From the IMG/VR virus record IMGVR_UViG_3300006924_000099, positions 1-29,957 of that record: a stretch of DNA of 29,957 nt, one strand, 5' to 3'. This document shows positions 2,824-29,957 of the stretch, in pieces (positions within the stretch are counted from its first letter, which is position 1; the number at the start of each line of letters is the position of its first letter). The DNA is from a virus. The position numbers and the translations under genes are program-made. The notes under the pieces were generated by a model, which saw nothing but the letters and a program-made list of their open reading frames with translations, made no database searches and was not told where the DNA came from.

Positions 2824-3052
2824 AGCCGTTGAAGAGCTCATCAAAGTGGCTAAAGAGGCTATCGTTGATAGTGGCGATGATATTACTGCTGACAGACTTA
2901 AAAACGCCGCTGCGACGAAGAAACTCGCTATATTCGATGCATTCGAAATACTTAACAGAATACAAGAGGAAGAGGCGATACTCAATGGAAAGGAATCTGA
3001 GAAGAAAGAAGAACGCGTATTTAAAGGATTTGCTGAAGGAAGATCTAAATGA
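2777..3052 (+). CDS. Small helical protein just upstream of the large terminase; small-terminase candidate
   Basis: A 91-residue, mainly helical and charged protein (KAVEELIKVAKEAI; residues 38-70 form a second helical region, ending in KEEERVF-like charged residues). It overlaps the GroES-like gene by 47 bases in a different frame and shares ATGA with the terminase start (ATG at 3049, TGA at 3050-3052), a classic arrangement for coupled translation. Position directly before terL and the helical, charged make-up fit a small terminase subunit. No helix-turn-helix can be assigned with confidence, so this is a positional guess. Confidence 0.7.
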   Translation: MNIKETKKSIIQAGHKAVEELIKVAKEAIVDSGDDITADRLKNAAATKKLAIFDAFEILNRIQEEEAILNGKESEKKEERVFKGFAEGRSK

Positions 3053-12873: not shown

Positions 12874-15800
12874 ATGCCGGAGTTAAAAAGAAATTTTCTA
12901 AAAGGTAAAATGAACAAAGACCTTGATGAAAGGTTAGTTCCAGACGGTGAGTATAGAGATGCTTTAAACATAGAGATTTCTACATCTGAAGACTCAGACG
13001 TTGGTTCTGTTCAAAACGTAAAAGGTAATAAATATATTGAAAATACAAGCTACACGCTTTCTAACTCTGCTGAGTCAGTTGGCCACTACGTAGATGAAAT
13101 AAATTCTCACGCTTATAACTTTGTTAGACTAGCTTCAGACGTAACCGCTAACACAAGCTTTGCAAATTACTCTAGCACACCAAGATATTTAGGCACTAAG
13201 TCAGACGCCATCATTAGAATAGAAGATGATAAGTCTTCAAACGAAGTTAAGAGTGAGGTTATATTTTGCGATGTGTATGAAGCAAGAGTAACTCCTAACC
13301 CTTTTACAGCTAACGTTATCGATGGCCTTGATGTAAACATACCTTTATACATAAGGCCTGGCATGAAGGTTCAAGCAATAGATCTTGATGGTAACGATCT
13401 ATGGGGAGAGTCGAACGACGTGAGAGTAGTTAGCGCTCCTTGGCCTAGTCTAATTGGTGCTAGCACAGGGACTGTTAACATAACATCGGTATTAAACGTA
13501 GCTAATATATACACTCAGTCTATGATTGACAACGGGGTTGTAATTAGGTTTACGGATGAAAAAATATTAAACTTTAAAGGTGGAACGTTAGAACTAGAAC
13601 AAAATAACAAAAACGCGTCGGGCGTTGACGTAAATGCTTTGGCCGTATATACTCCTGAAAGTAACATTATAACTGGGGTAAACATAATAGATGGCCTACT
13701 GTATTTTACAAACAATATTGATGAGCCTAAAAAAATTAACATAGCTCAATGTAGAAAAGGTAGTGGTTACTCGAAAAGCACAGCTTTAAAACACCATACG
13801 AGACTTATAATAGACAAGGAAGGTGTTAGCGTTAACAAAGGGCATATAAAAAAATCTCATGTTACACTTATAAAACCATCGCCTACTAGAGCACCTAGAG
13901 TAGAAGGTTTTACTTCAGAAAGAAGCGGTATAACAACATCCTATCTGTATGATACTGCTGGCACTGAGTTTGACTTATCTCCAAACGGAGTGTTATACAA
14001 CGCTTCAGATGTAAGTCCTGACACTATTCAATTAACAACAGGCAACTCTAACCCCGATTGGTTTGTTGGAGATATTATACGTATGAAGGGCGCGACTTCA
14101 TCTATAGAAGTTGATTTAGTTTTAGACGAAAAAATTAACGACTACACTTTTGTTTTTGAAATAAGAAATATACCTAGCTCATACACAGCGAGCACCGCGC
14201 CTGAAATATGGATTGGTAAGCTTTTTGAAAAAGAAAATATATACGAAGATAAATTTATATCGTTTGCATATAGATACAAATACAACGACAACGAATACTC
14301 TGTAATATCGCCATACTCTAAGCCTTTGTTTATCCCTGGCAAATATGACTACGATCCAATATCCGGCTTTAATACGGGTATGTCTAACAACTTAAAAAGA
14401 GTAGAAGTATACGATTACATTCCATACAGTATTCCAAAAGACGTAGTTGAAGTTGAGCTACTGTATAGAGAAACTCAATCACCTAACGTATACCTTATTA
14501 AAAAAATTAGTATATCCGACGAGGAGTGGAATTCGAGAATTACTAAAAGCAAACACAAAGGTAAAACCGTGATCAACTCGCAGCTATTCGGTAGCACAAT
14601 ACCAACAAATCAGGTTGACAGGCTGCAAGACAATGTTCCAACAAAAGCTGCTGCTCAAGAAATTACAGCGTCAAGACTTATGTTTGGTAATTACACGGAG
14701 AACTATAACCTAGTTGACGATGCTGGTCTTCCTGTCAAAGCTAGACTATTGATGCAGTTAAGCTCTAAGAATATTAACTCTGAGTTAAACATAAACTCTA
14801 CAAACAACTTTGAAGCGTCTCAGCTAACTACACTCACCAACAGTTATAATGTAGCGTTACCGTGCGATGAAGAAGCTATCGATGGAGATACCGGAGATAA
14901 TTACAACCCTACAAACTATTATTTTGAAGCGCCGACAGCTGGAGATTATACATTCGAAGCTAGCTGTAAATGGAAAGCTCAAAATGGAATTTTAGCTCTA
15001 GATGCTCTTAATAACAACAATTACATGTGGCTTTTTCCTTGGGCTTATTTAGAGTTGAGAGACTACGACACACAGGAGGTTTTAGCCACAGGAGCTCAGT
15101 ATAACAATGGAGACCCTGGAGCGCACGCTAGTTTTTTGCAGTTTACAAATCAAACCATTAGTGGATCTACGAATCCAAGAGCAGCTTTCAACGGTAGCAC
15201 CTGGTGGGGTAACACTTTTACTTCTAACCAACCGGGTTGGATTACTAGCAATTACAGGCCAACACTAACACTAGACTCTACAGTAAACTTAACCGCCGGC
15301 AAGAAGGTATACATAAGAGTTGTAGCTCAAGACCCTACAGACAATACTAATTTGCCGCAGGGAACAATACCTGACGGAACAGTAGAGTTTATTTACCAGT
15401 ACAACAGTGGAACTTTACCGTTAGATACTTTCTCTTGGATTAACACAACCCATACTTCTGAGATAACAAACGGTGTATTCAAATGTACGGCTTCACCTGA
15501 AAGCAACGGTACTTTTAATGTTACGTCTGGGGTTGAATCAATAAAAACAGAAAGAAAATATCAACTAGGTGTTGTCTATAGAGACTCTTACAATAGACAA
15601 TCGACGGTGTTGATAAGCGATAACGCTGCTTTAGATATTAAAAAGTCTTATTCTGAAAATGCCAACGCAATAAAGGCTAAAATACTAAACAAAGCGCCTT
15701 ATTGGGCTGACTACTACAAGTTTTTCATTAAAGAAAATGCTAATCCTTTTTACAATCTAGTAATGTCTGCTGCCTACGAGAACAACGACGCTAGCGCTTT

Positions 15801-18800
15801 AGCTTCACACTTGTGGTTATCTTTTAATTCAGACGATATTAACAAAGTTCAAGAGGGAGATTTTATTGCAGCTAAAAAAGCTCATGGATCAAACGCAACT
15901 TCTAACACCCCAAGTCAAAAGTGGAAAGTACTAGATATTAGTAGAACAAACCCTATTACAGCAGACGGAGAGACGCCTTTAATTGCGGATGCTTCAGCCG
16001 TCGCTGGTAAGTTTTTTGTCAAAATAGCAAAAGACATTTATAGCGATGCTTTTTTAGGGACATCATTTCCATTGGACCCTAGCCCTTATGGCGCTGTGTT
16101 TGAAGTTCAACCTCAAAAAACTATAGATTTAGATATATACTACGAGGTTGGCAATGCTTACCCTATTAAGCTAGATAAAAATAATCTATCAGAATTTGTA
16201 GATATAGATGCTAAAGTAAAACTGTTGAATGTTTTTGATCCAGGGTGGAGTATAGGAGATGGTGCTCAAACGTATAGGCAAGACAGCATAGATACGCTTA
16301 AGTCTACTATAGACGATCAAGACATAAGGGTAACTGGCCTAATTGGAGCTAGATCTTTTAGCTATTACGGCGTTAATAGCGGCAGCTATTTTAGCTCAGC
16401 TGTTATATCGCTAGATAAAGATATTAACTTAAACCTTCCGCCTGGAGGAAGCATATTAATTGGCTTTGAAAATAAAGATGGAAGTGTAGTTTCTTTAAGC
16501 TTAGCTAAAAGCGTTTCTAACAATCAGGTTTACTGCAGGCCTTTAACACATAGCTACGGCAATATCGAAGCTGATTTACCTATAACTTTACCTTGGTTTA
16601 ACTGTATTTCTTTTGGTAATGGTGTAGAGTCAGATGTAATAAATGACGACTTTAACGCTAATCCAATATTTCCGTACACAGCCAACGGTAAGCAAAGCGG
16701 ATTTAATGTAAACGTCGTATTCGACAGCTATAAAGAAGAAACAAAGCAAAGCGATATTATATTCTCTCAGATATATAATGAAAAATCTGGAGTTAATAGA
16801 TTTAATGAGTTTTTGATAGGTGAGAATATAGTCAAAACATTACCCGATGAAAACGGTAGTATTCAGAGATTATTTACAAGAGACACAGACCTACTAGCGT
16901 TTTGTGAAAAGAAAGTATTAAAAGTATTAGCGGATAAAGACGCCTTGTTTAATGCTGATGGAAATCTTCAAACATTGTCAACAGACAAAGTCTTAGGTCA
17001 AGCTATACCTTTCGCTGGAGACTACGGTATTAGCAATAATCCTGAATCGTTAGCGTTTGATCAGTATAGAATTTACTTTGTAGACTTAGTAAAAAGAGCT
17101 GTGTTGAGACTGTCTATAGACGGTCTTACCGTAATCTCAGAGTATGGTATGTCTGACTGGTTTGGCGATAATTTAAAACAAGCTCAAGCTGTTATTGGTA
17201 GTTTTGACGAAGATAAAGGTGATTACAACTTAACCGTGCACCAGGTTACAAATCCAGACTACAAGAAGAACGTATATACAGTTACGTTTAGCGAAGATGT
17301 AAAAGGCTGGGATAGTTTTAAGTCGTTTATACAAGAGCAAGGATTTAGTTTGAACAACAACTATTACACTATCAACAAAGGTAAAGTATATAGACATCAC
17401 GACGATACTGTTAGTAGAAATAACTTTTATGGAAATCAGTACAACTCTTCAGTTACACCGATAATAAACGATGTTGCTAGTTCAGTGAAAAGCTTTTCCA
17501 CTATAAACTACGAGGGGACGCAGTCAAAGGTAGATCAAAATACTCAAGACAGTAGCTACCATAACTTGACCGCTAAAAACGGATGGTATGTTGAATCTAT
17601 AGTTACGGACCAGCAAGAAGGTACAGTGTCAGAGTTTATAGAAAAAGAAGGGAAGTGGTTTAACAATATACTAGGAAAGCAAACTCAATACACGAACTCT
17701 CAAGAAGGGTCTACAGCGTCGAACAACTTAGACTTCAAAGACTTTTCTGTTCAAGGTCTAGGCGTTCCTACGTCAGTATCTGGAACAACTGCTGGATTTG
17801 GGCACAAGATTTCTGTAACAATGACCGCTTCAGGCACTGGCTGGGAGTCTGATGGTTATACTGAGTATAACATAGCGGGAAAAGCTAACGGTGACACTAG
17901 CACTTTTACAATAACACCCTTACCAGGATATTCAATAGCTGCTAGCAACTTTACGGCAATAGGAGCCGACTCTAACGTAAATTCTATCACTTATAGCGAT
18001 GCTGGAGTAGCTAACACACCTAGCAACACTATAACTGTTACTATAGACTGGAAAACTATAACACTGTCTTCAGACTTAAACATTAACATTTCGGATAGTG
18101 GTACTTATATTGAAAATACTTTTGCTTACGAAACTAAGTTGTCTGTATATAGAGACATTGCGAAAGAAGACGTTACTATAAGCTCAGTCGTTCCATCTAT
18201 AGATGATTCTGCTTCTACAGAGGTTAATAGCGGGGCTTCAATAGTTTTATTTAACGCAAATTCAGATGGAGTAGAAAGCTACAAAATAACTGGCGCTGCT
18301 ACTAAGTTAGCGCCGTTAAACTTATACAAAGTTACACTAACCGCTAAACCTGGTTTGCATTACTTTAATAATGGTCCTGGCGTTCAATTCTCTAGCAATG
18401 CTGAAGAAGCTAACTGCTTTGAGGTAATAAGTGAAACTGTTGAAAGAAACTTAAACGACCTAATTGTAAGTAAAACAGTAATAATACAATATACTCCTAC
18501 TGAAGATATATTATTTACAGATGAAATAAACATTGGTTTTGGTGGAGGTGTTCCAATTTCAAGTTACGCCGTTTTCAATAGTAATCAAATAGTTGTCGCT
18601 CATGATACTAATAGTGTTATTCTACCGTTTACAACTAATGTTGGGTACTTAAGTTTTTCAGCAACATCTACGGATAACACTAACGCGGCTATAAGCGCTG
18701 TGACAAGTTCAACTGTTGAGGTCGCGCTTACAACCAACTCTGGATCTACTGGTAGTCCAAGAACATTTACGATAGGCTTGTTCAATTCGTTTAATAACAC

Positions 18801-19911
18801 AGCCACACCAAATGATACTATAACCATAATACAAACAGAGTCTTCTCAAAACTACGTAGACATAAAAACCCTAGACGACGCAGACGCACTTACCGTGACG
18901 GCTAACGTTGACCTTGACCCATTGTCCTTGGTTGGTAGTACTTTCTTAATTAAAAAAAGCTTATATCTATACACTAACGGATCAGCGCCTGTTGCAGACA
19001 CTTCTTTTAACAGCAATCAATCTTGGGCTAACACATTTATTGTGTATGAAACTGATGACCCTACAGTTTATATTGGTAGAGTTGCTTTAGACATAAACAC
19101 AACTGGATCGAGCAGAACAGCTACGATAACTCTAATACACTCTGATACATCGACTACAGATACCCTTGTTATAACCCAAGAAGCTTATGACGCTGCTACA
19201 GAAACAGCTTTGTTTGACGATGCTGATAATTTTATAAACGTAGATCAAGCTGGCGGTTCTGGAACTATAGATATTACCACCGCTAATGTAGGTGCTTACG
19301 ATCCTTACGTTGAGCTTTTTGATCCAAACGGTGATTTATCTAACTATATTACGCTAGGTGATGTCACTAAAATAGGTACTAACGACTACAGCATTTACTA
19401 TTCTGTTATACCAAACGAAGAGACAACTAGCAAAGTATTTACATTGAAAATGTATCACCCTTCAAACAGAACGCCGGGCGCAACGGCTAACGATACACTC
19501 ACTATTAGTCAAAACGCCTTACCGTACGCTAACTTTGAGCCAGCTCAAGGTGTGCAAAGTCAAATAGAGTTAAGTAGTGCTGGCGAGACAAACTATGAGC
19601 TAAATGTTAATCACAATGATTACACGCCTGGTTCACCGAGCTTCCCTAACACCAGATTCTTAGTAGACGACAATAACAACGGTACGTATGATGTAGATAT
19701 TACAACTTCTCCAGGTATATCTTGGATTCCTTTCGCAAATGTTAACTGGACTAACTCAGCTAACAATGTTGATGGTAACGGTATACTTAAGTTTAACGTA
19801 AGCGCCAATACAACTGGTAGTTCTAGAAGCATAAATTTAGGTGTATTCCACTCGAACAACTCTAGCTCTACTCCAAACGATACAATAATAATTAATCAAG
19901 TTTCAAGCTAA
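12874..19911 (+). CDS. Giant tail-stabilisation / tail-hub protein with C-terminal BACON-like domains
   Basis: A 2345-residue beta-rich protein. The opening NFLKGKMNKDLDERLVPDGE, followed by YRDALNIE, is characteristic of phage tail-stabilisation proteins. Segments near residues 1395-1460 (DQYRIYFVDLVKRAVLRLS) look like beta-propeller blades. Residues about 1505-1630 hold another family-like block (HHDDTVSRNNFYG, then GWYVESIVTDQQEG and FIEKEGKWFNNI). Residues about 670-857 form a jelly-roll-like insert (EAPTAGDYTFEASCKW). From about residue 1900 to the end there are roughly four repeats ending in patterns such as TGSSR...NDTIIINQ, resembling BACON (carbohydrate- or mucin-binding) domains. 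It would close the tail below the adaptors and display glycan-binding modules. Its stop shares one base with the next start. The parts are recognised to differing degrees; propeller and jelly roll are inferred. Confidence 0.85.
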   Translation: MPELKRNFLKGKMNKDLDERLVPDGEYRDALNIEISTSEDSDVGSVQNVKGNKYIENTSYTLSNSAESVGHYVDEINSHAYNFVRLASDVTANTSFANYSSTPRYLGTKSDAIIRIEDDKSSNEVKSEVIFCDVYEARVTPNPFTANVIDGLDVNIPLYIRPGMKVQAIDLDGNDLWGESNDVRVVSAPWPSLIGASTGTVNITSVLNVANIYTQSMIDNGVVIRFTDEKILNFKGGTLELEQNNKNASGVDVNALAVYTPESNIITGVNIIDGLLYFTNNIDEPKKINIAQCRKGSGYSKSTALKHHTRLIIDKEGVSVNKGHIKKSHVTLIKPSPTRAPRVEGFTSERSGITTSYLYDTAGTEFDLSPNGVLYNASDVSPDTIQLTTGNSNPDWFVGDIIRMKGATSSIEVDLVLDEKINDYTFVFEIRNIPSSYTASTAPEIWIGKLFEKENIYEDKFISFAYRYKYNDNEYSVISPYSKPLFIPGKYDYDPISGFNTGMSNNLKRVEVYDYIPYSIPKDVVEVELLYRETQSPNVYLIKKISISDEEWNSRITKSKHKGKTVINSQLFGSTIPTNQVDRLQDNVPTKAAAQEITASRLMFGNYTENYNLVDDAGLPVKARLLMQLSSKNINSELNINSTNNFEASQLTTLTNSYNVALPCDEEAIDGDTGDNYNPTNYYFEAPTAGDYTFEASCKWKAQNGILALDALNNNNYMWLFPWAYLELRDYDTQEVLATGAQYNNGDPGAHASFLQFTNQTISGSTNPRAAFNGSTWWGNTFTSNQPGWITSNYRPTLTLDSTVNLTAGKKVYIRVVAQDPTDNTNLPQGTIPDGTVEFIYQYNSGTLPLDTFSWINTTHTSEITNGVFKCTASPESNGTFNVTSGVESIKTERKYQLGVVYRDSYNRQSTVLISDNAALDIKKSYSENANAIKAKILNKAPYWADYYKFFIKENANPFYNLVMSAAYENNDASALASHLWLSFNSDDINKVQEGDFIAAKKAHGSNATSNTPSQKWKVLDISRTNPITADGETPLIADASAVAGKFFVKIAKDIYSDAFLGTSFPLDPSPYGAVFEVQPQKTIDLDIYYEVGNAYPIKLDKNNLSEFVDIDAKVKLLNVFDPGWSIGDGAQTYRQDSIDTLKSTIDDQDIRVTGLIGARSFSYYGVNSGSYFSSAVISLDKDINLNLPPGGSILIGFENKDGSVVSLSLAKSVSNNQVYCRPLTHSYGNIEADLPITLPWFNCISFGNGVESDVINDDFNANPIFPYTANGKQSGFNVNVVFDSYKEETKQSDIIFSQIYNEKSGVNRFNEFLIGENIVKTLPDENGSIQRLFTRDTDLLAFCEKKVLKVLADKDALFNADGNLQTLSTDKVLGQAIPFAGDYGISNNPESLAFDQYRIYFVDLVKRAVLRLSIDGLTVISEYGMSDWFGDNLKQAQAVIGSFDEDKGDYNLTVHQVTNPDYKKNVYTVTFSEDVKGWDSFKSFIQEQGFSLNNNYYTINKGKVYRHHDDTVSRNNFYGNQYNSSVTPIINDVASSVKSFSTINYEGTQSKVDQNTQDSSYHNLTAKNGWYVESIVTDQQEGTVSEFIEKEGKWFNNILGKQTQYTNSQEGSTASNNLDFKDFSVQGLGVPTSVSGTTAGFGHKISVTMTASGTGWESDGYTEYNIAGKANGDTSTFTITPLPGYSIAASNFTAIGADSNVNSITYSDAGVANTPSNTITVTIDWKTITLSSDLNINISDSGTYIENTFAYETKLSVYRDIAKEDVTISSVVPSIDDSASTEVNSGASIVLFNANSDGVESYKITGAATKLAPLNLYKVTLTAKPGLHYFNNGPGVQFSSNAEEANCFEVISETVERNLNDLIVSKTVIIQYTPTEDILFTDEINIGFGGGVPISSYAVFNSNQIVVAHDTNSVILPFTTNVGYLSFSATSTDNTNAAISAVTSSTVEVALTTNSGSTGSPRTFTIGLFNSFNNTATPNDTITIIQTESSQNYVDIKTLDDADALTVTANVDLDPLSLVGSTFLIKKSLYLYTNGSAPVADTSFNSNQSWANTFIVYETDDPTVYIGRVALDINTTGSSRTATITLIHSDTSTTDTLVITQEAYDAATETALFDDADNFINVDQAGGSGTIDITTANVGAYDPYVELFDPNGDLSNYITLGDVTKIGTNDYSIYYSVIPNEETTSKVFTLKMYHPSNRTPGATANDTLTISQNALPYANFEPAQGVQSQIELSSAGETNYELNVNHNDYTPGSPSFPNTRFLVDDNNNGTYDVDITTSPGISWIPFANVNWTNSANNVDGNGILKFNVSANTTGSSRSINLGVFHSNNSSSTPNDTIIINQVSS
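18562..19908 (+). repeat. Array of about four diverged BACON-like protein domains
   Basis: Within the C-terminus of the giant tail protein, four segments of roughly 90-130 residues end alike. The conserved cores are GSTGSPRTFTIGLFNS...TPNDTITIIQ (Arg 1963, Gln 1987), NTTGSSRTATITLIHSD...DTLVITQ (Arg 2081, Gln 2102), KVFTLKMYHPS...ATANDTLTISQ (Gln 2213) and NTTGSSRSINLGVFHSN...TPNDTIIINQ (Arg 2318, Gln 2342). The 'N-x-G-x-x-R ... V/I-x-Q' frame is the BACON signature. Repeat 3 lacks the Gly-Ser-Arg part. Boundaries are approximate. Confidence 0.7.
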
Positions 19912-20294: not shown

Positions 20295-20957
20295 ATGAAG
20301 AAGACTCCAAAAAAATATGTAGGTTCATCTCCGATGAAGCTTCCTGTGTGGGCTCCAGCCGCAATATCTGCTGGCGTAGGGCTACTTGGCGCTATAAGTG
20401 GACGTAAGCAAGAAAAGCGAGCTAGACGTAGAGCTTTAGAGGCTGAGAAAGCAGCAGCTCCTTACTTAGAGGCTTATAAAGCAGAAGAGTATGTCAATCC
20501 TTACGCTGGTATGGAAAACGTTTACGAAGACATGCGTGTTGATACTCAAGCTGCAGAGTTTGAAAAGCAACAGCTAGCACAACAGCAAGCTGATATACTT
20601 CAAGGTTTAAGAGGTGCGGCAGGTGGCGCTGGTGTGGCTGCTCTAGCTCAATCAATGGCTAGACAAGGTGCTATTCAAGCTCAAAGAACTTCAGCTGATA
20701 TTTCTAGGCAAGAGCAAGATATACAGCGACAGCAATTAGAAGAGCAGTCTAGAATACAAGGCCTTGAAATGCAAGGTGAAGAAATGGTTCGTCAACAAGA
20801 AAGACAAAGATTAACAGACTTATACGCTATCGAAGCTGGTAAAGCAGGCGTTGCTTTTGGAGAAGCAGCTAGCGCTCGTCAACAAATGATTGGTGGATTA
20901 GGTCAAATAGCTTCGGCTGGAATCTCAGCGACTGACGCTGGTTTATTTAAAAAATAG
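20295..20957 (+). CDS. Internal virion (ejection) protein, T7 gp14-like
   Basis: A 220-residue protein with a basic start (MKKTPKKYVGSSPMK), one hydrophobic Ala/Gly segment at about residues 19-35 (APAAISAGVGLLGAI), then a long Ala/Gln/Glu-rich helix with a Gly/Ala-rich break (GLRGAAGGAGVAALAQSMAR) and a second one near the end (MIGGLGQIASAGISATDAG). This make-up is that of gp14-type internal proteins of podoviruses, which insert in the outer membrane when DNA is released. It is followed after five bases by an unknown 394-residue gene and then the giant polyvalent gene, giving the gp14/15/16-like order. Homology is suggested by composition and place, not by a specific motif. Confidence 0.78.
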   Translation: MKKTPKKYVGSSPMKLPVWAPAAISAGVGLLGAISGRKQEKRARRRALEAEKAAAPYLEAYKAEEYVNPYAGMENVYEDMRVDTQAAEFEKQQLAQQQADILQGLRGAAGGAGVAALAQSMARQGAIQAQRTSADISRQEQDIQRQQLEEQSRIQGLEMQGEEMVRQQERQRLTDLYAIEAGKAGVAFGEAASARQQMIGGLGQIASAGISATDAGLFKK

Positions 20958-20962
20958 TAGCA

Positions 20963-22147
20963 ATGGCAGATATAGTACAAGCAGCATTAGGATTAGAAAG
21001 AGCAAAAGCTGGAGCTAGAATGGCTAAAAGCGATATATCAGGCTTTACTGATCCTATACAAAAACAAGTTGGTGAGATAACTGAAAGAAATAAAGAGGCT
21101 CGCAAAAACTTTGTAAGTAACATCCCTGATAACTACGAGTTTGATTTAATACCAGCGGAAGCTAAAGCCAAATTAACTACTTTTTTAAAAGATAAAAAAC
21201 AAGAGTACATAGACTTTGCAGACCAAGCTAGTAGATACTCTGGCAACACAAGCAGCCAAGAATACATCGATGCTGTAGAGGGTATGGAAAATGTAAAAGC
21301 TGCGATGAATAAAAACTACGAAGATCTAGTTTTAGCTAAGCAAATAAGACAGTACGAGGTTAATAATGAAACGCTAGGAACAGTTGGTTTTGTTGGCGAT
21401 GAAAACGCTGATTCAAGAAGAACTGCTATAATAGACGGTAGCACTTTCAACAACATAGAATTTACTGATGACGGAGCATTTATAAACGATGGTTTTGGTG
21501 AAAAAATAGCGTGGAATAAGTATGATAAAACACCAGTAAGAAACGTTGAAGCAGCTAAAGCTTTCGCAGATTTAAAGAGTGATGTTGGAAAGCTAAGCGC
21601 CGCAGGTAGAGACAAAAAAACTGTAAGAGATGTGGTAGAGACTGAGCTTGGATTTCTTTTTCAAGATTCAAACTTTGTTGATGAAATATACAACATGGGT
21701 TTTTATGGAGATGTAAGAGGAAAAACTGTTTACAAGAACATACCTGGAGCTACTAAAGATAATATGTTTGAGTTTTTTGTTGATATGGTAATGAATGATA
21801 GCTATGTACCACTTATTAGTGATGACCAAGATCCTTCGTTTGACGCGGCGCCAGGCTTTAATTCTTTAGAAGCTGCAGGTCAAGTAAAACTTTCTTCACT
21901 AACCGGTAAAGATGAAGATAAATACAACTACGTTGTTTACAATGAAAAAATAGGTAAGTACGAAATAAGAAAAGGCGGTGAGGCTAAAGAAACTGGATTT
22001 CCGCCTCTGACAATGAGCCAGCTGCGAGCATTTGTTGGATTGACGCCCAATGAAGAAGAAGTCACCGTACCTACTTTTCTTGACCCAGAAAGTAAAGGTA
22101 TGAGCGTAGAAGAGCAAGCAAAAAATTTAATAAACTTATATAAATAA
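20963..22147 (+). CDS. Unknown protein of the ejection cluster (possible gp15-like or cargo protein)
   Basis: A 394-residue, mostly soluble, acidic protein. It starts MADIVQAALGLERAKAGARM, has a charged helical first 120 residues (KNFVSNIPDNYEFDLIPAEA) and a mixed alpha/beta rest with EKIAWNKYDKTPVRNVEAAK and VYNEKIGKYEIRKGG. No catalytic motif, signal peptide or membrane segment is visible. It lies between the gp14-like protein and the giant polyvalent protein, five bases from each, so a role inside the virion or in building the ejection channel is likely from context. I cannot name a family. Confidence 0.78.
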   Translation: MADIVQAALGLERAKAGARMAKSDISGFTDPIQKQVGEITERNKEARKNFVSNIPDNYEFDLIPAEAKAKLTTFLKDKKQEYIDFADQASRYSGNTSSQEYIDAVEGMENVKAAMNKNYEDLVLAKQIRQYEVNNETLGTVGFVGDENADSRRTAIIDGSTFNNIEFTDDGAFINDGFGEKIAWNKYDKTPVRNVEAAKAFADLKSDVGKLSAAGRDKKTVRDVVETELGFLFQDSNFVDEIYNMGFYGDVRGKTVYKNIPGATKDNMFEFFVDMVMNDSYVPLISDDQDPSFDAAPGFNSLEAAGQVKLSSLTGKDEDKYNYVVYNEKIGKYEIRKGGEAKETGFPPLTMSQLRAFVGLTPNEEEVTVPTFLDPESKGMSVEEQAKNLINLYK

Positions 22148-22152
22148 AACTA

Positions 22153-25100
22153 ATGCAAGAACTAGAGTTAATTGTTCAGCGAATGATACAAGCTGGCGAA
22201 AGCGAAGATAAAATAAAATTAGTTATTGAAGAGTACACGAGAAACGTGGAAAAGACAAACGGCTCTCAGACAGAGGATGCAACTGCGGAGCCAGTAGATA
22301 TGGCATCCAAATCGGAGGATACTTTTTCGGAGTCACCAAAACAAAATAAATATGATTGGATGCGCCCAGAAGTACCTACTGACTTTTTTGGCGAAGAGAC
22401 TAAGTTAGACTATAGTTTTTTTGATAGAACTGAAGAAGACGCTATTGGAGATTTAAAGGCAAGGTATCCTGGCTTTAAGTTTGAAGAAACAAACATTTTT
22501 GGTGACCGTAAATCTTTTAACGCTATAAAAGTCAGTAAAGGAGACAAGTCTATTAAAATAGAATTCAACATCGGCGGAGGAATTTTTGAAACTGCCCCAA
22601 CAGATGATCCTAGAACTTTAGGAGCTGTAACAAAATATAAAGAACAAGGCGTCGATGCTTTAAACACGGCTGAGAAAGGTTTGTTAATTTCCTATCAAAA
22701 TAAAAACAAAGCTTACGAAAAAGCTTACAAAGACTTAACTACTTTTTTAGATGAAAACTCTACTTCAGAAACAGATAAACTAGAACTACAGCAAGAAACT
22801 AAAAATGTCAAAAGTTACAAAAAGCACCTTGAGACAACCGCCCCCACAGAAGATCAGCTAAATCAAATTAACGAAACCTTTGATAAAGAAGATTTGTTTG
22901 ATGTTAAAGAAGAAGAGGTTAAAGTATTTCAAGGAGGTGGATTAGACCTTAAGTTTGGAGCTGCTCCAAGAAGCTATGTTAAAAAAACACAGCCTTACGA
23001 AAAAGAGTTGGCTGAAGCTCGAAAAATACTACAACAGACTAGCGAAAATCCCTCTGCTATAACTGAAGATGACGTAAAAAACAAGGCTAAAGAAATACTT
23101 GTTACAAACGCAAATAAAAAGGCTTGGAATTTAAACCAAGAAAAAGTACTCGAAGAGTTAGACGATCTTGATTATATTAGTCCAGAGGCTAAAAAGATGG
23201 TTAAAAAAAGTCTTGAAGTGGGTGCGGAACAATACAAAAAACAATACGCATCAAAACTAACATATAGAGAGCTTTTGAAAGAACAGCTTGATAATGGAAA
23301 GCTTGCTAATAGGCTATCCACTACAATAGAGCGATTTGAAGACGAAGATTACGATTACTCTAAAACAACGATGCGGCCAGGTGAAGGATTAATAACTTTA
23401 GAGAGTGGCAAGCAAATACCAGAAACTGTTTTCGCTAAATATCAAAAAGACTATAAAGAGTATAACGATCTTTATAAAAATTATGTAGACTTAAGTAATG
23501 AACTAGTTGCTGACGTTGAAAAAGGTTTTGTAGACAGAACGCCTGATCAGTTAGACTTGTTAAAAAGAAACTACAATGGTGTAGAAGAGTTTTTTGTTGA
23601 CGCTAGCTTAGGTTTTTTAGAATTAGCTGTAGACGCAGGTTATGGTACAGCTAAGTTTTTTGGAGACTCTAGCGTAGATGATGAAGCTCAGTTAAAGTTT
23701 AAAGATAAAGTAAGAAACATAAGAGAATCATACAAAAGAGACGTGGAGTTTGATGATGCTTTTAATTCTTTAGAAAATTTTGGTTCTTTTGCTACTCAAG
23801 AGCTAGCTAATCAACTATCTATATTTGCCGCGCTAGCAACGCCTGCTGGCTGGGGATTAATAGGTACTTCTTCTTTTGGTAGCCAGTATAGCGACATGAT
23901 CCGTGAAGATCAAGAGCCAGGCGCTGTTCCAACTTCTAAGGCTAAAAAGTGGTGGACATCGTTAGGTTACGCGGGAGCTGAAACAATATTTGGTGCCGCT
24001 CCAACTTATATGCTAATAAAAAATGCTAAGAGCGCATTGCTAACTAATGCTAGTAAAAACAGTTTGTTTGGTAACGGTGTGAAAGAGTATGTAAAGAAAA
24101 ACTTGGTCACACAGAATAATCTTGTTGGTGTTGTTGGTGAACCTGTCGGTGAGGGTTTAACTCAGTTTACTCAAAATATATTAAGCGGTAGAGACCCACT
24201 AGCAGATGTTGATCACGCTATGTTTTCAGGCTTAATGTTTGGTACCGCTTTAGGATCTGTACCTGTTTTTAAAGGTATGTATCTTTCACAGTTTTCTGAC
24301 GCTAAGCAAAAAGAACAAATAAGAACACTTAGATTAGAACAAAGAGATTTACAAAGAAAAAACGATCTTTTGTCAAGAGGAAAATCTATATCGCAAAACG
24401 TGCAGTTTCAAAAACAAAAGTTAATTGAAGACAATAACGGTAGAATAGAAGAGCTTCAATCGCTTATAGATTTAGAGGTTTCAGCCATCGACGCTAAAGC
24501 TAAAACTTTATCTCCAGCCGCTGCTAGAGAGTTTGTTAGCGCTATAACTAGACAAGAAGATATAAGATTAGACGCGCAAGAAGTTTTAGACAATGATTTA
24601 TTATCTGATAAAGACAAAGACAAAAAGCTTTTAGAATTAAAACAAGAGTTTGATGCTATTCAAGACGGTGTAACAGAGTTTAAGAAAAGTAAAACTTGGA
24701 ATAACAATTTTAGCATATTTAAAGGTAGAAAAGAAAACAAAGCTGAAGTTGAAAAAATTAGAGAAGAAGCTGAGCTAGCTTTACTTGAACAAGACGGCAT
24801 TACTGATCCTAGCAGCGAGCAAATTGAAGAAAAAGCTAGGATAGTGTACAACACAGAGCAAATCAAAAAAGATATTGCTAAAAAAACTAAAAGAAAAACT
24901 ACAGCTTTAAGAAATACTTTAGTGTCTCACGAAACTACAGAGCAAACAAAAGAGTATTTAGATAAAATTGCAGAAGATAAGATAAAAGTTATTCAAAACA
25001 GCGATTTAACAGACGCTCAAAAAAACAATGCTATAGAAAGTGTAAAAGCTGAAGCCGAGACTAACAAGTCAGAGGTTGATAATGGCGCGCATGGTTTTAT

Positions 25101-28100
25101 GCAGATGGATGCTGACGGTAACTTTGTTTCTGTAGTAAACATAGAGAATATGGCAAAAGCCGACAGGCTTGAAACTAAAACTCATGAGCTTCAGCATGTT
25201 CTGTTTTCTGATGCTATAGGATTTAATCCTAAATCTTTTACGCCTTTGTCTGACGCTATACTAGAATGGACAAAAGCAAATAATCAAGATGTTTATAAAA
25301 GAATTAATGCTTTTGCAGAAAGACGAAGTGATGGATCATTACTAGAGCAAGAGGTTGTAGCTGTATTTTTTGAAGAAGTTGCAGCTGGCAATATAAACCT
25401 AAACGCTAAAAAGAACTCTACTTTTAGCGGTATGTTAGGTTATCTCGTTGGCAAAGGCGTTGAAGAATCTTCTGATGTTGACATTAACTTAGCAGGCGAG
25501 ACAGATGCTATTAAGTTTTTAGTTGGTATAGCTAACAAAGTTAAAAACGATCAACTTACACTTGCTGATCTTAGCGATATAAAAAAGAATAAGATAATAC
25601 AAGAGATTAGAAAAGGCAAAGTCGAAAAAACTGGTCAAACTCAGTTTTCAAAAGTTTACCAAGAGGTTGAAACAATGAAAGCTGATTTAGTAAATCCAGA
25701 TACTAAGCAAGGAACAGCGTTTATTATTGCAGACACATTATCCAACGAAGTAGATAGACGTTTACCTAGAATAGAAGGTATAACAGCCGAAGAAAGAGCT
25801 GATATAGTTAGAAACTTTGTGCTAGATGATAATAGAGGTTTAGTAGGTTTGTTAAACAACTATAATCCAGACAGAAACGATAGCATAATGGGCTACTTAA
25901 ACTCTTCTACACCTGGAGGTAAACTATTAGATGCTAGACTTCAAGAGTTTTATAAAGACGATCCTAGGTTCGGTCAAATATTTCAAACCACGACTGATGA
26001 AGCTATAGCTACGAAGGTTGAAAGAGAGACAGCTATAGAGGAAGAAGATACTGATGTTTCTAAAGCTGATAGAAAAACAAAGTTAAAAGTATTAGCAGAT
26101 CAACTAAATGTAGCTGATAAGGTTAAATCTGAGGTAGCGGAAGCTAATATAGATATTGATGCGCTAACCAACTTTAATAGTGTACCTAGCGCTACCCCAA
26201 GAACCGTAGGAGAGTTATTAGGCATAAACCCAATGAAACTCCAAAGAACTGTTATTGACGAGGAAACAGGTGAAAAAATAAAAAATAAAAAGTTTAAAGC
26301 CAACTTAACGGCAGGCGAAGTTGCTAGCGCTCAGCGTTGGTTTAATAAAAACGCTAGACTTGTTATCGATGCTCTGCCTCAGGGTTTTGATGCTGAGGGT
26401 AAAGCTACAGGCGTACCTAAAACTGTATTAGAGGCCTTATACACTAAACGTGAGGCTAGGGCTAAAACAAAAGCTGGATTACGTACGCAGGTAAAGAAGC
26501 CAAATATAAAAGAGTCAGAGTTACTAGAGCTTGTAGATATTATAGATGGTAAGCCAACTCGCGATAGAAATACATCGGCTAGAATTATAGCTTTAGCAGA
26601 CTTGTTTGGTAAAACGATCACTAACCAAGAAATAAGAAAGCAAAATCCAGAGATATTAAAAATACGTGATGGTATGTCTACTATCATGTTTTCTAAAGAA
26701 GGTAAGAAATCAAAAGAGTCTGGAGATGTTGATCTAAACAAAATAGAAGGCAAAGAAAAACAAAAGGACTGGTTGATGAAAGGCGGATTTGCTATTCTAC
26801 CCAAGTCGTTTTGGCTTAACAACGGGCAGTTAGTAGGATCTGGAGCAAGATATAAAAATATAATAGTAGACGGCGAGAAAACAAAAGAATACGAGTTGAA
26901 AGACGGTGAAAGAATAGCCGCTCGTAAAATGCTGTTTGCCAACGTAGATCAGTTAAAAGATTTTATTAAAGAATACGAAAAAAACGGCGGTAAGTTTGCG
27001 CCAGAGAATAACAATGTAAATGCTGCTATAACAAGGACGACTGCGTACGGTAAAAAGACAAACAAGCAGGTTTTAGATCAAGCAAATAAAAACAAAGAGC
27101 TGTTTAATAATTCTGATCAAGGCTTTATTGATATTTGGATGGCTATACAGAAAGACATTCAAGATAATCCTAATAACAGAAAGCATTGGGCCGCCTTACT
27201 AGAAGTTACATCTACAACTCAAGCCAACTGGATGAGAGTGGCCTCTAGACTTATAGGTGGTAATACTTTAGGTTTAACAAATGTAGAAGAGCATATGTCT
27301 CCAGCCACTGATTTTGCTCAGTATCTTTGGGAGATGGCTAAGATAAACAAATTAACACCTTCAGTTCTTAAAAAGGCTATGAAATCTTTTACTCAAATAT
27401 CTTTACCAGAGGTATATGATAAATTGTTAAAAGGAGAAGGTTTTGATTACACTAAAAATTTACCGTTAGAATATAAATTTGAAATACTATCTGGTATAAT
27501 GCCTTCTTGGGTAAGATACATAAATCCTGATGTTAATTCACAGGTGCACTACATAGATGGTGTAAAGTATAAAGGAATGAACCCTAACGTCTTGACACTA
27601 GCTAATGGAAATAACTTAGCGCAAGAGTTTGGTTTAGGCGTTGACTCTAAATTTGAAATGAATCAAGACGTTATATCTATTCAACAAGATCTTCTTTTCA
27701 AAGTGTTTGTGAACAATATAACCAAAGCAGAGGCTAAAGCTGAGCTAGACGCTAGAATGAAAGGCATTGAAATCACTAAAGAAGCTGCGTTTGATAGAGA
27801 ATCTAAACAAGCGATTAGCGACAATATATCTAACGTTAGACCGGTTTTACAATACAGCGAAGAGTCAAGAGGTATGTCCACTTTTGACTTTGATGAAACA
27901 TTAATTATAGACGGTGAAAACTTTGTTACAGCAACTAAAGATGGCGAAGTTGTTAAAATACCATCTGACAAATGGCCTATTGATGGTCCTAGATACGCTG
28001 AAGAAGGATATGATTTTGATTTTTCTGATTTTGTAAATGTTCGTGGTGGCAAAGAAGGTCCATTGCTTCAAAAAATGAAGAATCAAATAAAAAAATATGG

Positions 28101-29957
28101 ACCTAAAAATGTATTCGTTCTTACTGCTCGTATGCAAGAAGCCGCTGAGCCAATACATAAGTGGTTAAAAAGTCAAGGTATTAATATACCTTTAGAAAAC
28201 ATAACTGGACTTGGTAAAAGCGAAGGTGATGCTAAAGCTCAATGGTTTATAGATAAGTATGCTGAAGGCTATAATGATATGTACTTTGTTGACGACGCTT
28301 TGCCAAATGTAGAAGCTGTTAAACACGTGTTTGACCAACTAGACGTAAAAGGTAAGTCTGTTCAAGCAAGATTACAATTTAGCAAAGACATAAACCTTGA
28401 GTTTAATAAAATGTTAGAGCGAACTAAAGGTGTTGCGGCTGAAAAAAAGTTTTCAAGAGTTGTTGGTCAAAAGCGTGGTAAAAACATAGGTAGATATAGA
28501 TTTTTTGTCCCGCCTTCAGCCGAAGACTTTGCAGGTTTATTATACGACTTTTACGGTAAAGGCAAGCAAGGTGATGCTGACATGGAGTTTATGAAAAAAG
28601 CTCTGCTAGATCCATTTGGTAGAGCTGATCGAGAAATGAGTATGGCTCGTATGAGTATACTAGACGATTATAAAATGCTCAGAAAAGAATTGCCTAACGT
28701 AAAGAAAAAATTAGGTAAAATAATAGACGAAAATACAGGCTTTACTTTTGATAACGCAGTGAGAGTTTATTTGTTTGACAAAGCTGGATTTGAAGTTCCT
28801 GGTATATCAAAACGAGATCTTGAATATTTAAGAAACGTCGTAAGAACAGATCAAGATTTAAAAACTTTTGCTGACACGTTAAGTATTATTTCTAAAAGAG
28901 AAGAAGGTTATATAGAGCCAGGCGAAAACTGGAGTGTTGAAACAATAGCGTCTGACTTAGAAAACATTGTAAATAAAATTGGTAGAAAGCAATATTTAGC
29001 AGAGTTTATTGAGAACAAGAATATTATATTCTCACCGGAAAACATGAATAAAATAGAGGCTGTGTATGGCTCTAGATTTAGAAACGCTTTAGAAGACTCT
29101 TTGTATCGTATGGAAAACGGTACTAATAGATCTAAAGATAGAAATTACGGGCAAAGTTGGACTAACTGGGTAAATGGCTCTGTGGGCGCTATAATGTTCT
29201 TTAATGGTAGATCAGCTGTATTGCAGACTTTATCTACAGTAAACTTTATAAACTTTCAAGATAACAATATATTCAAAGCTGGTAAAGCTCTTGCTAATCA
29301 AAAACAATATTGGTCAGATTTTACAACACTGTTTAACTCTGACTTCTTGAAAGCTAGAAGAGCTGGTTTGCAAATAAATGTAAATGAAGCTGAACTTGCT
29401 AACGCCGTGGCTGGTGCTCAGAACAAAGCTAAAGCAGCGCTAGCATATTTACTTAAAAAAGGTTTTTTACCTACACAAATAGCGGATAGTTTTGCTATTG
29501 CTTCAGGCGGTTCTACGTTCTATAGAAATAGAATCAAAACTTACGTAAAACAAGGCATGGATCAAAAAGCCGCAGAAGAAAAAGCGTTTTTAGATTTTCA
29601 AGAAATAGCTCAAGAAACTCAGCAGTCTAGTAGACCTGATCGTATATCACAGCAACAAGCGAGCCCATTAGGACGTCTTATATTAGCTTTCGCTAACACT
29701 CCGATGCAATATAATCGTTTAATCAAGAAAGCTGCTAGAGATTTAATAAATAATCGTGGCGACTGGAGAAGCAACATATCAAGAATACTATACTATGGAG
29801 CTATACAAAACGTTATATTCTCTGCAATGCAATCAGCTATATTTGCTTTAAGCTTTGACGACGAAGAAGACGATGAGTTAGATAAAAGAACTATGAGGAT
29901 AGCTAACGGTATGATGGACACTATACTTAGAGGTTCTGGCGTAACAGGCGCGGCAGT
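22153..29957 (+). CDS. Giant polyvalent internal virion protein with peptidase-like and HAD phosphatase-like domains (3' end missing)
   Basis: An open frame of at least 2601 residues running off the window. In order it has: an N-terminal short helical segment (LELIVQRMIQAGESEDKIKL); an alpha/beta domain (about 85-140); charged coiled coil; a hydrophobic Gly/Ala-rich region at about 477-710 (IFAALATPAGWGLIGTSSFG); more coiled coil; a zincin-like HELQH at 1011-1015; several all-helical domains; a HAD domain with DFDET at 1912; and a conserved C-terminal block from 2337 (WVNGSVGAIMFFNGRSAVLQ; QASPLGRLILAFANTPMQYN). Such multidomain 'polyvalent' proteins are known in phages and are thought to be ejected with DNA, with domains acting in the new host. 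Here it follows two other internal proteins. Channel formation is inferred from the hydrophobic region. No lysozyme motif was found. Confidence 0.9.
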   Translation, partial: MQELELIVQRMIQAGESEDKIKLVIEEYTRNVEKTNGSQTEDATAEPVDMASKSEDTFSESPKQNKYDWMRPEVPTDFFGEETKLDYSFFDRTEEDAIGDLKARYPGFKFEETNIFGDRKSFNAIKVSKGDKSIKIEFNIGGGIFETAPTDDPRTLGAVTKYKEQGVDALNTAEKGLLISYQNKNKAYEKAYKDLTTFLDENSTSETDKLELQQETKNVKSYKKHLETTAPTEDQLNQINETFDKEDLFDVKEEEVKVFQGGGLDLKFGAAPRSYVKKTQPYEKELAEARKILQQTSENPSAITEDDVKNKAKEILVTNANKKAWNLNQEKVLEELDDLDYISPEAKKMVKKSLEVGAEQYKKQYASKLTYRELLKEQLDNGKLANRLSTTIERFEDEDYDYSKTTMRPGEGLITLESGKQIPETVFAKYQKDYKEYNDLYKNYVDLSNELVADVEKGFVDRTPDQLDLLKRNYNGVEEFFVDASLGFLELAVDAGYGTAKFFGDSSVDDEAQLKFKDKVRNIRESYKRDVEFDDAFNSLENFGSFATQELANQLSIFAALATPAGWGLIGTSSFGSQYSDMIREDQEPGAVPTSKAKKWWTSLGYAGAETIFGAAPTYMLIKNAKSALLTNASKNSLFGNGVKEYVKKNLVTQNNLVGVVGEPVGEGLTQFTQNILSGRDPLADVDHAMFSGLMFGTALGSVPVFKGMYLSQFSDAKQKEQIRTLRLEQRDLQRKNDLLSRGKSISQNVQFQKQKLIEDNNGRIEELQSLIDLEVSAIDAKAKTLSPAAAREFVSAITRQEDIRLDAQEVLDNDLLSDKDKDKKLLELKQEFDAIQDGVTEFKKSKTWNNNFSIFKGRKENKAEVEKIREEAELALLEQDGITDPSSEQIEEKARIVYNTEQIKKDIAKKTKRKTTALRNTLVSHETTEQTKEYLDKIAEDKIKVIQNSDLTDAQKNNAIESVKAEAETNKSEVDNGAHGFMQMDADGNFVSVVNIENMAKADRLETKTHELQHVLFSDAIGFNPKSFTPLSDAILEWTKANNQDVYKRINAFAERRSDGSLLEQEVVAVFFEEVAAGNINLNAKKNSTFSGMLGYLVGKGVEESSDVDINLAGETDAIKFLVGIANKVKNDQLTLADLSDIKKNKIIQEIRKGKVEKTGQTQFSKVYQEVETMKADLVNPDTKQGTAFIIADTLSNEVDRRLPRIEGITAEERADIVRNFVLDDNRGLVGLLNNYNPDRNDSIMGYLNSSTPGGKLLDARLQEFYKDDPRFGQIFQTTTDEAIATKVERETAIEEEDTDVSKADRKTKLKVLADQLNVADKVKSEVAEANIDIDALTNFNSVPSATPRTVGELLGINPMKLQRTVIDEETGEKIKNKKFKANLTAGEVASAQRWFNKNARLVIDALPQGFDAEGKATGVPKTVLEALYTKREARAKTKAGLRTQVKKPNIKESELLELVDIIDGKPTRDRNTSARIIALADLFGKTITNQEIRKQNPEILKIRDGMSTIMFSKEGKKSKESGDVDLNKIEGKEKQKDWLMKGGFAILPKSFWLNNGQLVGSGARYKNIIVDGEKTKEYELKDGERIAARKMLFANVDQLKDFIKEYEKNGGKFAPENNNVNAAITRTTAYGKKTNKQVLDQANKNKELFNNSDQGFIDIWMAIQKDIQDNPNNRKHWAALLEVTSTTQANWMRVASRLIGGNTLGLTNVEEHMSPATDFAQYLWEMAKINKLTPSVLKKAMKSFTQISLPEVYDKLLKGEGFDYTKNLPLEYKFEILSGIMPSWVRYINPDVNSQVHYIDGVKYKGMNPNVLTLANGNNLAQEFGLGVDSKFEMNQDVISIQQDLLFKVFVNNITKAEAKAELDARMKGIEITKEAAFDRESKQAISDNISNVRPVLQYSEESRGMSTFDFDETLIIDGENFVTATKDGEVVKIPSDKWPIDGPRYAEEGYDFDFSDFVNVRGGKEGPLLQKMKNQIKKYGPKNVFVLTARMQEAAEPIHKWLKSQGINIPLENITGLGKSEGDAKAQWFIDKYAEGYNDMYFVDDALPNVEAVKHVFDQLDVKGKSVQARLQFSKDINLEFNKMLERTKGVAAEKKFSRVVGQKRGKNIGRYRFFVPPSAEDFAGLLYDFYGKGKQGDADMEFMKKALLDPFGRADREMSMARMSILDDYKMLRKELPNVKKKLGKIIDENTGFTFDNAVRVYLFDKAGFEVPGISKRDLEYLRNVVRTDQDLKTFADTLSIISKREEGYIEPGENWSVETIASDLENIVNKIGRKQYLAEFIENKNIIFSPENMNKIEAVYGSRFRNALEDSLYRMENGTNRSKDRNYGQSWTNWVNGSVGAIMFFNGRSAVLQTLSTVNFINFQDNNIFKAGKALANQKQYWSDFTTLFNSDFLKARRAGLQINVNEAELANAVAGAQNKAKAALAYLLKKGFLPTQIADSFAIASGGSTFYRNRIKTYVKQGMDQKAAEEKAFLDFQEIAQETQQSSRPDRISQQQASPLGRLILAFANTPMQYNRLIKKAARDLINNRGDWRSNISRILYYGAIQNVIFSAMQSAIFALSFDDEEDDELDKRTMRIANGMMDTILRGSGVTGAA
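25183..25389 (+). other. Zincin-like peptidase motif region within the giant protein
   Basis: The residues T-HELQH-VLFSDA (His at 1011 and 1015, Glu 1012) form an HExxH zinc-binding motif. About 50 residues later LLEQEVVAVFFEEVAAG offers a third, acidic ligand (E1067 or a neighbour), the spacing and pattern of phage-encoded zincin domains. It would hydrolyse peptide bonds, either on the phage's own giant protein or on a host target. The motif is seen; activity is inferred. Confidence 0.65.
27862..28374 (+). other. HAD-superfamily phosphatase domain within the giant protein
   Basis: All HAD motifs are present in order: DFDET at residues 1912-1916 (nucleophile Asp 1912, acid/base Asp 1914), a Thr in FVLTAR at 1990 region (motif II), lysine candidates K2022 or K2028 in GLGKSEGDAKAQW (motif III), and VDDALPN at 2046-2052 (motif IV Asp pair). 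The domain is about 170 residues with an insert between motifs I and II. It should be a Mg-dependent phosphohydrolase; nucleotides or DNA ends are plausible substrates but not shown. It is bracketed by QYSE (1900) and QFSK (2075). Confidence 0.82.

Follow-up and report, generated by a model that had tools for sequence, protein, structure and literature searches.

The window analysed here is a virus contig of 29,957 bases that ends inside a giant gene, placed last in a module of virion genes. This raises the question of whether the encoded protein is a mechanical part of the particle or carries enzymes into the host cell, and, if it does, what those enzymes act on.

The giant gene and its parts

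A single open frame starts with an ATG at window position 22153 and runs to 29955, open at its 3' end. The 2,601 residues match the minimum length given in the original prediction. The gene is cut by the contig end, and relatives continue for about 180-230 residues beyond the window endpoint. By comparison with them, the complete protein is probably some 2,800 aa long; L003, the nearest full-length relative across most of the sequence, has about 2,830 aa. The parts are as follows.

22153..29957, + strand: giant polyvalent-type open reading frame, 2601 residues in the window, 3' end past the contig
22153..23382, + strand: variable N-terminal region, charged and helix-rich (residues 1-410; occupancy 0.32-0.78, top-residue frequency 0.08-0.18), with little conservation beyond the closest relatives
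23782..24672, + strand: helical and mildly hydrophobic region (residues about 544-840); homologs are phi38:1 gp101 and elemo gp21
25012..25392, + strand: predicted zincin metallopeptidase domain (residues about 954-1080), from conservation and AF2 topology
25183-25197, + strand: HExxH motif (residues 1011-1015)
25351-25353, + strand: Glu1067
27070..27807, + strand: folded Glu-His domain, boundaries approximate, from conservation of the Glu-His pair and the L003 model
27865..28380, + strand: HAD phosphatase domain (residues 1905-2076), from the complete catalytic set and a fold match
28390..29955, + strand: constant all-helical C-terminal block (C-block; residues 2080-2601), running past the contig, from conservation and fold matches

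Scans of the giant with Pfam, PHROG and PADLOC gave no significant match, and tblastn against 50,697 phage records gave none either, which agrees with its description as little known. Neither the two halves nor the HAD by itself gave more than chance matches in PDB sequence-profile searches.

Gene neighbourhood and phage lineage

Several virion structural families are encoded upstream of the giant, in the same direction and beside the terminase and portal genes.

3049..5268, + strand: terminase large subunit, TerL (phrog_6681, E 6.4e-167)
5271..7691, + strand: portal protein (phrog_6547, E 5.6e-160)
12874..19911, + strand: 2345-aa virion structural protein (phrog_14478, E 2.5e-118; tblastn matches to Cellulophaga and elemo structural proteins)
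20295..20957, + strand: 220-aa gp14-like protein, at the position of phi38:1 gp099 and elemo gp23
20963..22147, + strand: 394-aa protein, at the position of phi38:1 gp100, elemo gp22 and N4 gp51

The window TerL is 67.6% identical to that of MW202828 (Podoviridae sp. ctfjg026), 45.7% to those of elemo phages and 36.5% to that of phi38:1. It matches 87 phage records, all of them Bacteroidota phages except one without a named host, and these include Flavobacterium elemo, Cellulophaga, Tenacibaculum and Maribacter phages. The gene order, from TerL and portal through structural genes and the gp14-like gene to the giant, is common to phi38:1 (Pervagoviridae, Callevirus), elemoA (Elemovirus) and ctfjg026. 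As expected from the original prediction, the window phage thus appears to be a Bacteroidota podophage, related to Pervagoviridae and Elemovirus through its TerL, portal and structural gene order. The structural protein at 12874-19911 is a second giant, of 2,345 aa, with far shorter counterparts in phi38:1 (1,324 aa) and elemo (1,470 aa).

Synteny with phi38:1 and elemoA also places the giant behind a gp14-like protein, as had been proposed. The gp14-like protein has a hydrophobic N-terminal helix followed by a Gln/Glu-rich helix, and its homologs occur in 23 loci. The 394-aa protein has no family match; it has homologs in L003, L017 and L025, and is a probable second ejection or structural protein, to judge by its position. 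The last gene of the module encodes 3,859 aa in ctfjg026, 1,691 aa in phi38:1 and 3,694 aa in elemoA, and is annotated as ‘structural protein’ in the latter two. The shared last position, together with partial homology (see below), suggests that the giant is the last structural or ejection gene of this lineage. The ctfjg026 gene (MW202828.1 741-12320, L014) has two HExxH motifs, and its annotation as ‘reticulocyte binding/rhoptry protein’ is almost certainly a spurious name.

Relatives, conservation and module exchange

Relatives of the C-terminal part of the giant were found in at least 450 IMG/VR contigs, a set in which HAD-less members are under-sampled because the query included the HAD. 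Others come from Sphingobacteriales and Bacteroidetes assemblies. One relative in a Woesearchaeota MAG (L098, PBPJ01000012.1) most likely lies on a misbinned phage contig.

Conservation was measured in 81 near-full-length giants of 2,000-4,300 aa. The C-block is the most conserved part, with mean top-residue frequencies of 0.54-0.79 over residues 2101-2600, which bears out the conserved C-terminal block that had been noticed. Comparison with relatives gave dN/dS values of 0.03-0.22 overall, the zincin, HAD and C-block lying at 0.03-0.10 and the N-terminus at 0.22, indicating purifying selection on all four.

While the C-block is constant, the modules upstream of it are swapped among relatives. 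In the sister L017, residues 72-940 of the window giant are unalignable despite a 97% identical C-block; L017 has only 2,402 aa, owing to a shorter N-terminal half. A clean module swap in the middle of L003 and the window giant was rejected, since both align to L002 there (blastp), and judging from these alignments this part is a case of divergence combined with partial swapping. The HAD is missing from L007, L009, L010, L011 and L099. In two of these (L011:9311-10345 and L099:9089-10123), other modules fill the slot before the C-block, with a D...ExK pattern that recalls PD-(D/E)XK nucleases by eye and is without Pfam support. In L081 (9992-11086), a different module of unknown function (phrog_16075, E 2.9e-7) follows an intact HAD. 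A Cys/His-rich tail (C...RC...C..H), DUF5763-like in one member (E 0.0017), is found at the C-termini of L002-L005 and many other relatives, and was lost from the window by the contig end.

N-terminal half and predicted zincin

A profile of residues 411-1570 aligned to elemoA gp21 (hhalign 98.0%, E 2.2e-13) and to phi38:1 gp101 (97.6%, E 3.3e-12), in both cases over the helical, mildly hydrophobic region. The description of this region as channel-like in the original prediction is weak: it is predicted to be all-helical, and its hydropathy shows just two modest 19-residue peaks (Kyte-Doolittle 1.25 and 1.24), at residues 555 and 688, and no clear transmembrane helix on that scale.

The predicted zincin motif stood up well. 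Its three HExxH columns are conserved in 96/98/96% of the 81 relatives, and Glu1067, a candidate third ligand, in 95%. In nearly all of the 81 giants, a single HExxH precedes the C-block. In the AF2 model, HExxH and Glu1067 lie on two helices (model residues 598-612 and 655-667) that come after a helix and strands, and this pairing of an HExxH helix with a Glu ligand on the following helix suggests that residues about 954-1080 form a zincin metallopeptidase. The same order of helix, strands, HExxH helix and Glu helix is described for polyvalent zincins by Iyer et al. (PMC5512222). The alignment to MPTase-PolyVal was confined to the HExxH motif. A structural search (VIA-align) with the N-terminal/zincin model gave long-helix matches confined to the helices neighbouring the zincin.

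Between zincin and HAD lies a Glu-His pair (residues 1713-1714, window 27289-27294) that is 73% conserved. The equivalent region of L003 is modelled with pLDDT 82-96, and this domain is possibly another enzyme.

A HAD phosphatase and the kinase nested in it in relatives

The HAD domain proved complete, as proposed. Residues 1905-2076 contain motif I (DFDETL, 1912-1917), LTAR (1990-1993), K2028 and DD (2047-2048), that is, the DxD, T/S, K and DD motifs on a HAD fold, and the catalytic residues are kept in 76-78 of the 81 relatives (94-96%). The five best chains in VIA-align were all polynucleotide kinase-phosphatases (Pnkp): 4xrp (Pnkp1; Z 10.3, rmsd 2.6, 128 aligned), 5uj0 (Z 10.1), 4xru (10.1), 1ltq (9.8) and 2ia5 (9.4), with T4 Pnkp reaching 10.1 at best. 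Non-Pnkp HADs scored 8.9 or less; the Pnkp lead of 0.5-1.4 Z units is a near tie by VIA-align's own rule. The modelled fold is thus nearest to polynucleotide 3'-phosphatases, narrowly ahead of other HADs. In profile comparison with T4 Pnkp/PseT (hhalign), the HAD aligned over motif I only. The window HAD is uninterrupted; compared with Pnkp, its motifs I and II are set further apart by an additional segment.

This likeness goes beyond the original prediction, as do the gene position shared with cultured phages and a kinase nested in the HAD of relatives. The window giant itself has no P-loop kinase (no Pfam match, and an uninterrupted HAD) and so lacks the linked polynucleotide kinase of a bifunctional Pnkp. 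In four relatives (L075, L090, L093 and L095), a P-loop kinase was initially seen to separate HAD motifs I and II, and a dedicated scan brought the kinase-bearing giants to 66, with the kinase visibly within the HAD in 64 of them. The insertion site is the turn of the HAD flap hairpin.

L093:9308-10462: kinase nested in the HAD; likewise in L075, L090, L095 and L106-L171

The tree sisters L085 and L130 differ by the kinase insert; its left flank in L085, misplaced by the aligner, was read by eye. On a quick tree of 138 C-block sequences, the nested state requires 10 changes, at least 8 of them across well-supported branches, and by this tree the nested kinase has been gained or lost at least 8 times.

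The best PDB matches of the kinase profile, 4gp7/4jst (E 0.006-0.009), are listed as ‘metallophosphoesterase’, and we take them to be the kinase domain of Clostridium thermocellum Pnkp. Pnkp1 was also among the matches (E 0.19). The kinase further aligned to that of T4 PseT (hhalign 78%, E 1.8e-5) and to the polynucleotide kinase family phrog_505 (E 3e-8). Pfam assigned both AAA_33 and Zeta_toxin to all 52 kinases scanned, and AAA_18, CPT, shikimate and adenylate kinases were matched as well. HAD and kinase are independently derived leads that both point to nucleic-acid ends, and neither is strong alone.

Co-occurrence with RNA ligase was dropped as support for RNA repair, as it is not associated with the kinase: among larger, incomplete viral records, PF09414 was not enriched (5/31 kinase-bearing vs 4/18 kinase-free). 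A separate RNA-ligase-family gene, mostly of about 280-290 aa, is present in L102-L105 and in records G327, G340 and G352.

The C-terminal block and a proposed polyvalent link

The C-block (~520 residues) is predicted to be all-helical, with pLDDT mostly 70-90. Its fold matches BFVD proteins annotated as Large polyvalent protein associated domain (LPD) or ART-PolyVal, with E values from about 2e-5 to 4e-3. A further match is Internal protein D of Bordetella phage BB8 (prob 0.97, E 3.9e-3). Matches to tape measure proteins were weak (E above 0.01). No Pfam polyvalent domain was found in the window giant, and no LPD38 in these phages. An identity of the C-block with LPD38 was not supported: there was no Pfam match, and the alignment to a self-built LPD38 profile was at chance level. 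The C-block could be aligned in register with the segment upstream of LPD38 in a protein from a Sphingobacteriales assembly, a lead only at a probability of 0.5%.

The giant does combine disparate activities in one polypeptide, namely the putative zincin and the HAD, and in relatives the kinase or other inserts. Since a Pfam polyvalent domain is missing, the polyvalent nature claimed for the protein rests on its architecture and the C-block fold.

Proposed role and alternatives

We lean towards the giant being a podophage ejection protein of polyvalent build, whose Pnkp-like HAD acts on nucleic-acid ends and is delivered together with the DNA. It would consist of a helical N-terminal half, a zincin, an unassigned folded module, the HAD and, as a constant scaffold, the helical C-terminal block. 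Its place in the particle is most likely the capsid. If T7 and N4 (PMC8954989, PMC12633501) and the cargo of crAss001 (PMC10172136) are a guide, the gp14-like protein would leave through the tail first, followed by the 394-aa protein and the giant, which would partly unfold for the passage and refold inside the cell. The enzyme modules would thereby enter with the incoming DNA. There, the HAD may strip 3' (or 2',3'-cyclic) phosphates left by host nucleases on tRNA, other RNA or phage DNA, and in relatives a 5'-kinase would be added within the same domain. A virion-borne phosphatase could heal ends for host ligases, protect DNA ends or have another target. The zincin probably processes the giant itself, in the head or after ejection.

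An ejection protein could also carry a HAD and a kinase for small molecules or host regulators (nucleotides, sugar-nucleotides or a zeta-toxin-like UDP-GlcNAc chemistry) rather than for nucleic-acid ends. We regard this as rather unlikely, though much is compatible with it. Both enzymes belong to promiscuous superfamilies, and AAA_33 is joined by Zeta_toxin (best 8.6e-14) and CPT among the families that the kinase matches. A relative in BFVD (A0A218MLT5) is annotated as UDP-N-acetylglucosamine kinase, NCBIfam places the HADs in HAD-IA/IIIC, with DNA 3'-phosphatase called in only 2 of 59, and RNA ligase does not follow the kinase. However, Pnkp is among the best solved-structure matches of HAD and kinase independently, and the two are nested as a unit in 64 of 66 cases.

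A purely mechanical ejectosome or structural protein, similar to T7 gp16, would need its zincin and HAD for assembly only, for example for self-processing in the head. The likeness of the C-block to internal virion protein D, a gene position equal to that of the T7 and N4 ejection genes, and a phi38:1 gp101 devoid of both HExxH and HAD motifs would suit such a role, but neither the retention of the HAD catalytic residues nor the repeated gain or loss of a kinase within the HAD is expected for a passive part, and we find it improbable. Very improbable, in our judgement, is a tape-measure-like or adhesin-like tail component outside the capsid; large size and the weak tape measure matches hint at one, while the podovirus-type module, the catalytic domains and the likeness of the C-block to polyvalent proteins speak against it.

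For the preferred ejected enzyme, a broader scenario is that a large uncultured clade of Bacteroidota podophages packs a nucleic-acid-end healing enzyme, often with a flap-nested kinase, and ejects it before or together with the DNA, so that RNA or DNA cleaved by host defence nucleases would be repaired ahead of all phage gene expression; we offer this tentatively, as a conjecture that may well prove wrong. If true, polyvalent ejected proteins would extend to nucleic-acid repair chemistry, and the phage could oppose immunity that cleaves tRNA or DNA from time zero onwards. T4 must express PseT and RNA ligase first. A kinase nested in a phosphatase flap, with at least 8 gains or losses, is in itself an unusual enzyme architecture. 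Hundreds of viral contigs carry the gene, and the cultured Callevirus and Elemovirus phages have a gene at the corresponding position.

Comparison with known systems

Like the polyvalent proteins of Iyer et al. 2017 (PMC5512222), the window giant is large and multi-domain, with a zincin of the HExxH...Glu type, variable enzyme modules and a virion-gene context. It differs from those described there in lacking a Pfam LPD or MPTase-PolyVal match, and the main text of that study does not name phosphatase or polynucleotide kinase modules of such giants.

The cultured counterparts, phi38:1 gp101 and elemo gp21, likewise come last in a gene order common to these phages and share the N-terminal helical region. 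Elemo gp21 has one HExxH and, unlike the window giant, no HAD motif, and no detectable homology to the HAD or C-block. In phi38:1 gp101, both the HExxH and the HAD motifs are missing.

The virion RNA polymerase gp50 of N4 (Schitoviridae) is likewise a giant and the last ejection protein after two smaller ones, with a likely membrane-spanning N-terminus, an HExxH domain and a large helical C-terminal domain (PMC12633501). An N4-type RNA polymerase identity was rejected, as Pfam gave no match and the C-terminal half of the giant had no hhalign match to gp50. In crAss001, also a podophage of Bacteroidota, the cargo proteins gp45-gp50 are an example of large helical proteins that are stored and ejected; of these, gp47, gp49 and gp50, unlike the giant, are related to RNA polymerase (PMC10172136).

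With T4 PseT and bacterial Pnkp1 (of the Pnkp1/Rnl/Hen1 complex; PMC4411300), the giant shares the HAD fold and catalytic motifs, and its relatives the Pnkp-like kinase. Unlike in those enzymes, the phosphatase is here part of a giant virion-type protein, and the kinase of the relatives interrupts the HAD flap hairpin rather than standing in tandem with the phosphatase.
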